This document shows positions 28,652 to 32,100 of a DNA stretch of 64,000 nucleotides, piece after piece. The DNA comes from Branchiostoma floridae. Lineage: Eukaryota > Chordata > Leptocardii > Amphioxiformes > Branchiostomatidae. The stretch spans positions 19,490,024 to 19,554,023 of the forward strand of contig NC_049987.1 in the NCBI RefSeq assembly GCF_000003815.2. Direction: 5' to 3'. The position numbers and the translations under genes were made by a program. Every line of letters begins with the position of its first letter. The first letter of the stretch is position 1. Below the pieces are notes generated by a model that was not told where the DNA came from, searched no databases, and worked only from the letters and a program-made list of their open reading frames with translations.

Positions 28652-29150
28652 TTATTGGGTGTGTTTGATCCTGATCCCGTCAGTTATTGGGTGTGTTTGA
28701 TCCTGATCCCGTCAGTTATTGGGTGTAAGTTTGATCTAGATCCCGTCAGTCATTAGGTGTAAGTTTGATCTAGATCCCGTCAGTCATTAGGTGTAAGTTT
28801 GATCTAGATCCCGTCAGTCATTAGGTGTAAGTTTGATCTAGATCCCGTCAGTCATTAGGTGTAAGTTTGACCCAGATCCCGTCAGTTATCATGTGTAGGT
28901 TTGATCTAGATCCCGTCAATTATTAGGTGTAAGTTTGACCCAGTCCCGTCAGTTATTGGGTGTAAGTTTGCTCCAGATCCCGTCAGTTATTGGGTGTAAG
29001 TTTGCTCCAGATCCCGTCAGTTATTGGGTGTAAGTTTGACCCAGATCCCTTCAGTTATTGGGTGTTAGTTTGACCCAGTCCATTCAGTTATTGGGTGTTA
29101 GTTTGATCCAGATCTTTTAAGTTATTGGGTGTAAGTTTGACCCAGATCCC
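28652..29150 (-). repeat. 34-bp minisatellite derived from P450 gene A 3' coding end
   Basis: About 15 head-to-tail units of roughly 34 bp; on the minus strand each reads GATCTGGRTCAAACTTACAC then CCAATAACTGA or a variant. The first unit is the end of the P450 coding exon ([10 protein letters not shown]) and the others extend downstream. Unit identity is highest in the middle (28740-28870). Confidence 0.9.
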
Positions 29151-32100
29151 ATCCTTTGCCCGCAGAATGAGCTGCTGCAGGAAGAACGGCGAAGGTTTGG
29201 TCTCGTCCAGCTCCAGGCGGAAACGCTGGAGGATCAACGCCACCGCCACTTTCATCTCGTTCATGGCGAAATTCTGGCCAATGCAGTTTCTAGGTTGGAA
29301 ACAAAAAAAAAATCACATAGCTTAGCTGCCCTTACTGAATAATTGATAGAGGTTAGACATCTTGATAATATACCACATGCACAAGTTACTCGGGGAAGAC
29401 CGCTTAGGAAAAGTGAAGTCTGTAACCTTGTCTGGAACCTTATGTGGTTGGCTGTGGTCTGAAATGCAACAGTCCCTCCCCCAAAGTGGTATGACAATGG
29501 AACAACAGTGAGGAGATCGTTATAATGCCAAAGTAGATACTGACCATTTTCTTACAGCTGGGTGAAGCTGATTACATCATGCTTAAACTCGTGAAACACA
29601 ACACAACACAAAGATACTAAAATCCACTTGCATTACCTCGGTCCTGCAGAGAAGGGGACAAAAGCGTGGTGGTGTCTGTCTTTGGATCTTTCTGGAGAGA
29701 AGCGCAGGGGATCATAGACCTGAAAAATGTAAATACTATAGTTACACTTAGCCGTATTACGAAGTAGAACCATTCATGATCAGTATGGCTAGGTGAGAAA
29801 GATGACAGACCGTCTAACAAAATGACATGTACAAAACAAGTTGGTTGTGTATACAGTCTAGAGCTTTCTTGTAGAAATTTCTTGTTTGAAATTCTTTCTT
29901 TCATGTAGAAATTTATTCTGACTGGCATAACCACTCCGCCATTAAGCCATGATGAAATAGGGTTAGTTTCTATAACTATATATATATGTGTATACCCCTT
30001 AAAGTGAGCGACATGTCATTTTTCTACTGAATTGAGGTTTCTAACTGTCATTTTCATGTAGCTCCTTAATCTTTTATCACCGTGTGATGCAGCTTACCTC
30101 GGGGTCTGGCCAGATCAGGTGGTTGTGATGTGTGGACATGATCCTTGCACTTACAAGTGATCCTAAGTTTAAAGATATAATAAAAATGACATTGAAATGG
30201 AAGATATAAAGAGGATGTTGAAAGAAAACTATGAAATCACTGACAGATACACTAAAGGCTGTTGATCAAATAAATTACAGGCAGCAACAGAAAGATCCAC
30301 ATAACTGACAGAAAACATTCATAGATAATGCAAAAACCTAATCATGTACATCAACTACTTCGGTAGTATCATGACTTTGATGAGTGTTCGAGAAGGGCTT
30401 AGAAACATACATGACAATCATTACTTAGGCACGTACTATATAACGCTACATACACTCTATAAGAAAGGTTGGTGATGCATTTCTCTCCTTGAGGTTCTCA
30501 CAGATAATAACACCAATAAGCAATATCATGTCAAGCTAAGGGTTAACTTCTTGTTGTATTTATTTATACCTTCAGGCATGTATTTCCCGTCTGGGAAAGT
30601 CAGCGTCTTGGTGAGACGTCGAGAAACACTTGGGACTGGGGGTCTGATCCTCAGGCTTTCCTTGATGCACATGGTGATGAAGGGGAGTTTACTCATGTCC
30701 TCCCTAGAGACAGGTATAAAATCTGTATCTTAGACGTTAGTTCTAAAAAAAAATACAGGAAAATAACTGTCTTGGTGAGAATGATCCTTAGAATTTGCAC
30801 AGTCAGTTGTGAAAGCTGGTTTACTTTATCATCTATATGTATAAATTTAAATATTATCAACTTAAAGATGTATCTTAGATATGCATTTTTGTGAGCAAAG
30901 TAAGTCTCTATTTAATACACATAGTGGTAAATGGTAATTTACTAAGGAGAAAATATTCTCACCACGTCATCTCCGTGCGTCCCTGCAGCAGCCCTTCCGC
31001 CTCCCTCCTGCACCTGTCCTGGTACTCCGGGTGTTTGGCCAGGTGGTACAGGGCCCAGGAGATCCCGCTGGCCGTGGTGTCGTGACCCTCGAACAGGAAC
31101 GTGTCCACCTCGTCTCGGATCTCCGCGTCCGTCAGGCCTGTGCCATCCTCATCCTGCCAAAATGTACCAACAATGACTAGTATTATATACAATGTATGTT
31201 GTCTATTGACCCACCCTAATTTGCAATGATGGTGAAATTAATTGTGAACATTCATAAAATAACATTCACTAACTCACTTCCGACAGGTCACATATATCAT
31301 AAACCCTGACCAAATGCATCTCAATACATCTCTAATGCAACGTTCCCCAGTATTACGCATTATCTAAATTGTGAATACCAAATCGGGTGCTGCACTAGAG
31401 ATCTCGGAGATCTTTTTTTTCAAAGCGGCATGTTAGTGCATGTCACCTGGCAGATAAATAGTTAGATTAACAATTTTTCTACGTGCCACCTGTAAAAATC
31501 AGATTATAATCAATTTAACTTTTTTATGTTGCATCAAAGGACAACCATTGTTAACCTTGGCTTGCAGAAGGATGTCAAGAAAATCCAGATATTTCTTGCT
31601 TTTTTCCTCCTTAGTGTCTCCATCTTGAAGAGCCTTCTTCCGCTGCCGGATGAGGTGTTCAGAGACTCCATGCACGATGTCGCACTGTTGGCGGAACCTG
31701 GCAGGGAAACAAGCGTCAAAGGGAAGCAAGGTAGTCTTTTTCTGGATTGTTGGCTTAAAATATAAGTTTCGGGTTCAAACCCCTACCAGACCTACTTTGC
31801 GTTTGGGACTGCATCACCCAGCTCCAGTGCCCTGTGAACCTGTAACACCTAGCTCCAGTGCACTGTGAGTGAACCTGTAACACCTAGCTCCAGTGCACTG
31901 TGAGTGAACCTGTAACACCTAGCTCCAGTGCACTGTGAACCTGAGTGTAACACCTAGCTCCAGTGCACTGTGAACCTGAGTGTAACACCTAGCTCCAGTG
32001 CACTGTGAGTGAACCTGTAACACCTAGCTCCAGCGCACTGTAAACCAGTCAGTATATAGCTTTGACGAAGATGACAGATGGTCATGGAAACGTTGGCTAT

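Follow-up and report, generated by a model that had tools for sequence, protein, structure and literature searches.

Stop-spanning minisatellites at the ends of CYP4-type P450 genes in amphioxus, and a predicted protein end read from the second unit of one of them

The window, i.e., the entire 64,000-nucleotide stretch of the Branchiostoma floridae genome analyzed here (C9:19490024-19554023), contains two cytochrome P450 genes, which we call A and B, and the last exon of each runs into a minisatellite made of 34-bp units. The features located within it are given below, together with the basis on which each was called.

29088..35246, minus strand: gene A, a CYP4-type cytochrome P450 with 12 coding exons (exon finding, splice sites, and frame)
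29088..29289, minus strand: predicted last exon of gene A, which reads past unit 1 of array A and ends in unit 2
28646..29150, minus strand: array A, made of 15 units, mostly 34 bp long with a few of 32-33 bp (unit boundaries by comparison)
29150-29117, minus strand: unit 1 of array A, coding (unit boundaries)
29118..29120, minus strand: TTA where the ancestral TGA stop stood (sequence and paralogue comparison)
29088..29090, minus strand: TAA stop in unit 2, used after loss of the ancestral stop (predicted last exon)
28651..28656, minus strand: AATAAA, changed from AATAAC, in the unit of array A farthest from the gene, a putative poly(A) signal (motif match)
36104..36222, minus strand: decayed remnant of the A/B/C array, 858 bp upstream of the gene A ATG (genome search, E=5.4e-7)
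52416..60559, plus strand: gene B, a paralogue with a predicted product of 521 amino acids and a retained TGA stop (exon comparison and splice sites)
60527..60966, plus strand: array B, ~13 units of 34 bp, beginning within the last exon of gene B (Tandem Repeats Finder and unit comparison)
60967..61209, plus strand: decayed units at the far end of array B; an AATAAA lies at 61164 (unit comparison and motif match)

Exon-by-exon comparison, together with splice sites and frame, predicts a gene A product of 531 amino acids, and its frames are open across all 12 exons with GT/AG sites intact. The Pfam p450 profile (PF00067), which was run on gene A alone, matched with E=2.3e-112 (376.6 bits against a cut-off of 22.8) and was covered from position 4 to 457 of 462. 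The nearest solved structure is CYP4B1 (E=2.9e-145, with homology over nearly the full length), and only two CYP4B1 sequences reached E<=1e-100 in that comparison. By profile and nearest structure, gene A is a CYP4-type P450. A third paralogue, gene C, lies a short way beyond the window (C9:19555229-19565283) and has a predicted product of 521 amino acids; among ten flanking 10-kb pieces, exons and repeat units were found only in the two (L009 and L010) that hold it. Since dN/dS over the 521 shared codons is 0.23 for A-B, 0.21 for A-C, and 0.24 for B-C, all three genes look constrained.

Minisatellites are tandem arrays of units of ~10-100 bp in several copies. The arrays described here fall within that range, with 34-bp units in 15.0 copies behind gene A, 12.9 copies behind gene B (both by Tandem Repeats Finder), and ~35 units behind gene C, where a block of units is itself repeated, and with an 81-bp unit at two genes on C15 (see below). 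Tandem Repeats Finder placed array A at 28648-29150 (period 34, 91% matches, score 698). The initial annotation was right that an array is present, but its limits of 28652-29160 are a few bases off. As it had also proposed, the array opens with the gene's own last codons, unit 1 being the end of the last exon. In each of A, B, and C, the first unit is coding. The likeness between exon end and array is not due to chance, since the exon end has a downstream match at E=1e-21 and the same array lies behind paralogues B and C.

At the ancestral stop position after NN, gene A reads TTA (29120-29118, minus strand), whereas its paralogues have TGA there. The codons that follow are AAA GAT CTG GAT CAA ACT AAC ACC CAA TAA, so that the predicted tail consists of 10 residues, i.e., that of the TTA codon and KDLDQTNTQ, and has no counterpart in genes B and C. 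Because 34 = 3x11+1, the reading changes frame on entering unit 2, where CAA TAA ends both it and the predicted last exon at 29088; this TAA is out of frame with the ancestral reading of the unit. The extension by 10 residues into unit 2, the frame shift caused by a unit that is not a multiple of three, and the double role of the next unit, which supplies both the added residues and the TAA that limits them, had all been read in this way by the initial annotation. Its interpretation is supported in part: the array does derive from the gene's own codons. Its further suggestion, that the C-terminus is still being shaped by turnover of the minisatellite, is no more than a possibility here: gene A lost its stop through a point substitution within the coding unit, with no unit gained or lost.

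Genes B and C both read NN TGA, and TGA occupies the stop position in 14 of 14 downstream units in A, 10 of 11 in B, and 33 of 34 in C. The exceptions are distal units, and a decayed unit of B just past the counted stretch is also without TGA. Since one distal unit of C reads TTA and the decayed B units lack TGA, loss of the stop is not peculiar to the coding unit. Given the TGA of genes B and C and of all 14 downstream units in A, we read TGA as ancestral and the TTA of gene A, called from one assembly, as a derived loss. A genome DNA search with five array units returned no second haplotype among its matches.

The arrays and exons also bear marks of their history. Arrays B and C look old at the far end, because their distal units have decayed. 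Array A contains identical neighboring units, and these together with the repeated block in C suggest turnover. The remnant upstream of gene A shares that gene's orientation and would most simply be the tail of a lost upstream tandem copy; exons of such a copy were not seen there. In the last exon, genes A and B differ at 4 of 168 sites (dS 0.08) as against dS values of 0.84 and 0.65 in exons 5 and 6, on which basis they appear to have exchanged the last exon fairly recently, and the loss of the stop in gene A is probably younger still. Exon 7 (30963-31153 in A; 57905-58095 in B) is nearly identical among A, B, and C, with 1-3 differences in 189 sites, while in exons 5 and 6 gene B differs widely from both A and C (dS 0.65-0.84); this exon mosaic suggests that gene conversion acted exon by exon. 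Genes A and C also contain partial copies of exon 8 in the intron that precedes it, at 30911-30946 in gene A and at 7688-7777 of L009 in gene C. The coding unit of gene B differs by one base from its second unit, reading ATC where A and C read GTC. Among 26 units of arrays A and B compared at this position, which do not include the decayed units 12 and 13 of B, the base is A in 14 and G in 12. The ATC of gene B may reflect exchange with the array or ordinary mutation.

We also searched the genome for the last exon and obtained 57 matches at E<=10. The 21 with E<1e-10 were kept as CYP4-type last exons, and the remaining 36 (E>=0.003, mostly partial) were dropped. Five of the 21 are followed by a copy of their own end, and 16 are not; when the final 30 bases of these 16 array-less exons were compared with the sequence behind them at shifts of 9 to 399, at best 14-17 bases matched. 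The five carriers are genes A, B, and C and two CYP4 genes on C15 that lie 238 kb apart, at C15:2845927 (L035) and C15:2608105 (L037). The C15 unit is 81 bp long (27 codons), starts within the last exon, and covers PEPVPVHKIVLRADSPGLFLKINPL and the stop. At L035 it is present in 3.0 copies, whose successive stops are TAA, TGA, and TAG, and at L037 in 6.7 copies, the first six of which carry TAA while the last is broken. Both genes retain their first stop, and a genome search found the 81-bp unit at these two C15 genes only.

This 81-bp array apparently represents a second, independent birth, since the units differ in length (34 and 81 bp) and are drawn from different stretches of the exon. In a tree of the 21 exons, which places the C9 and C15 carriers apart, array presence requires two changes, and trees with one change occurred in 0 of 200 bootstraps; the rows of this tree hold 60-88 residues each, 1 of its 18 inner branches is fully supported, and its firm branches alone force only one change. 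The difference between the units is therefore the better argument for two births.

The codons of the 34-bp unit are older than the array, because CYP4B1 aligns through them (GIxxxLxP) to the proline of LTP and because array-less paralogues on C2 and C4 end in GIWVKVHP or GIWVKLHP plus a few residues. The genome DNA search with five units (513 Mb, 431 contigs) gave 22 matches, all of them in arrays A, B, and C or in the remnant beside A; this search skips very common words and may miss distant copies. A unit profile run over 30 excised loci matched at genes A, B, and C and at none of the others. Since the search located the unit just at three genes and one remnant, the most likely source of the array is the gene's own end.

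What follows the loss of a first stop differs between the two kinds of array, because it depends on unit length. With the 34-bp unit, reading enters a shifted frame in which CAATAA or CCTAA stops it after 8-9 further codons, and this is the distance to the next in-frame stop in A, B, and C. In the C15 pair that distance is 26 codons, and in-frame reading of the 81-bp unit would add 27 residues. Among the 16 array-less paralogues, the next in-frame stop lies 0 to 97 codons away. From any start, the mean number of codons to the next stop is 7.3 in A, 9.4 in B, and 10.2 in C, as compared with 17.1, 16.1, and 17.1 in shuffled sequences, and shuffles as low as the observed value numbered 0, 3, and 0 of 100, respectively. 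These runs are short relative to shuffles because nearly every unit contains a stop. With respect to RNA structure, one unit folds like its shuffles (z 0.02), and two four-unit stretches gave z values of -0.79 and -0.92. Past the AATAAA at 28651-28656 in array A, further AATAAA motifs occur near gene A at 28049, 27629, and 26630, and AATAAA or ATTAAA motifs lie further on in all three genes. If the first AATAAA served as the poly(A) signal, arrays A and B would form 3' UTR; its use is a guess, since further motifs lie beyond.

We infer the following course of events, which we consider very likely as a whole: a stop-spanning duplication founds the array, gene duplication spreads it, gene A loses its stop, and unit 2 captures the reading. 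The founding event would have been a tandem duplication, in an ancestral CYP4-type gene, of the last 11 codons and stop; a short match between the GA(C/T) before GGGATC and that in the stop (TGA-C/T) may have primed it. Since the first stop would not have moved, the protein would have been left unchanged and the array would have gone unseen by selection, which is why such duplications could persist. The array would then have grown and turned over as 3' flank or 3' UTR and have been carried by gene duplication to genes A, B, and C. A later G-to-T change would have turned the TGA of gene A into TTA, upon which the ribosome would enter unit 2 frame-shifted, owing to the 34-bp unit, and stop ten codons on, producing a short new tail. 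A stop created by the junction of the duplication was also considered, as suggested by the array genes ending two or three residues before several relatives. It is not favored, because the 3'-most copy at L035 has its stop before unique sequence and because a stop is also read at the equivalent place in the decayed far end of array B.

The last steps of this course presuppose that the TTA is real and the gene intact. We allow a small but appreciable chance that the TTA reflects a rare allele or a mistake in the assembly and that gene A normally ends at TGA as B and C do, given that no other well-kept unit has TTA, that a 100-N gap (28413-28512) starts 133 bp past the end of array A, and that a single haplotype is represented. 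Yet at the junction gene A differs from B by three substitutions, instead of a single one, and the remainder of the gene reads cleanly, both of which would be compatible with a rare allele. Were gene A a decaying pseudogene, the loss of its stop would be part of that decay; the stop loss itself fits such a reading, but 12 exons open in frame with GT/AG sites and dN/dS values of 0.21-0.23 make it very improbable.

Concerning the arrays themselves, a pre-existing minisatellite or mobile repeat might have inserted at the 3' end of the ancestral gene and become the source of its last codons, and because unit 1 is continuous with the array, the join itself gives no direction. This origin is already disfavored, and we consider it highly unlikely, as the unit codons match those of CYP4B1 and of CYP4 paralogues that lack an array, and as the search made located the unit just at A, B, and C and one adjacent remnant. 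Selection might instead keep the arrays as a trap, with one or two units sufficing to catch any frameshift or loss of the stop in the last exon, a proposal in keeping with the shorter-than-shuffled runs in A, B, and C and with gene A as an actual case of capture. However, a stop in nearly every unit suffices for those runs, the in-frame distance of 8-9 codons is ordinary beside the array-less paralogues so that selection for stop capture is unneeded, 16 of 21 relatives have no array, and the 81-bp arrays would add 27 residues and not cut the reading short. We therefore regard maintenance by selection as improbable and retain a duplication of the gene's own end, followed by loss of the stop in gene A.

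Coding VNTRs occur in last exons, as in human CEL, where the repeats are translated in frame. The P450 arrays resemble this VNTR in being minisatellites at the 3' end of a coding region, but their units sit behind the stop, with the exception of unit 1 and, in gene A, part of unit 2. For amphioxus, two reports (PMC3087553, PMC3902484) describe "mirage" minisatellites at Adh3, the globins BflGb6 and BflGb9, and troponin C, as well as similar repeats at PGBD5; these mirages copy exon-intron boundaries, and normal mRNA and splicing are reportedly not upset. Like the mirages as described there, the P450 arrays are tandem repeats of host gene sequence that overlap a gene boundary, and by analogy the logic of their persistence is the same. 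Unlike the exon-intron mirages, the P450 units span the boundary between coding and 3' sequence together with the stop codon, within the last exon; moreover, two different arrays occur in one gene family, and in gene A the boundary has moved into the array. In yeast, tandem stops are in excess at the third codon after TAA and are held to be selected, according to PMC1088959. The P450 arrays likewise provide back-up stops behind the real one, but these arise as the gene end is copied and lie 8-9 or 26 codons further along, and an extra stop at the third codon downstream is absent in A, B, C, and the C15 pair. No stop-spanning minisatellite appeared among the literature matches listed in a search aimed mostly at repeats and otherwise at P450s or stop codons, which is weak evidence of absence.

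We tentatively propose, as a possibility that we would not yet call probable, that stop codons in the amphioxus genome are recurrent sites at which self-copying minisatellites build up silently, and that C-termini may have been reset repeatedly across the CYP4 family. If true, occasional loss of the first stop would give a new C-terminus, either in a shifted frame, as in gene A, or as a whole terminal segment, as for the 81-bp unit on C15. The arrays themselves widen the copying of gene boundaries known in amphioxus from splice sites to stop codons, with two apparently independent births within one gene family and one gene caught after loss of its stop. Such a route to a new protein end, from silent array through stop loss to capture by the next unit, is testable, and genes B and C serve as unchanged controls for gene A within the same genome.

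Other features of the window include a separate 35-bp minisatellite of 5.9 copies in an intron of gene A (31834-32041), which has no contact with an exon. By eye, we also noted open frames at 40247-41606, broken by Ns, that look like the terminal part of a membrane transporter, and reverse-transcriptase-like open frames between genes A and B at 42329-44248 and 45327-50604, one of them 639 amino acids long.
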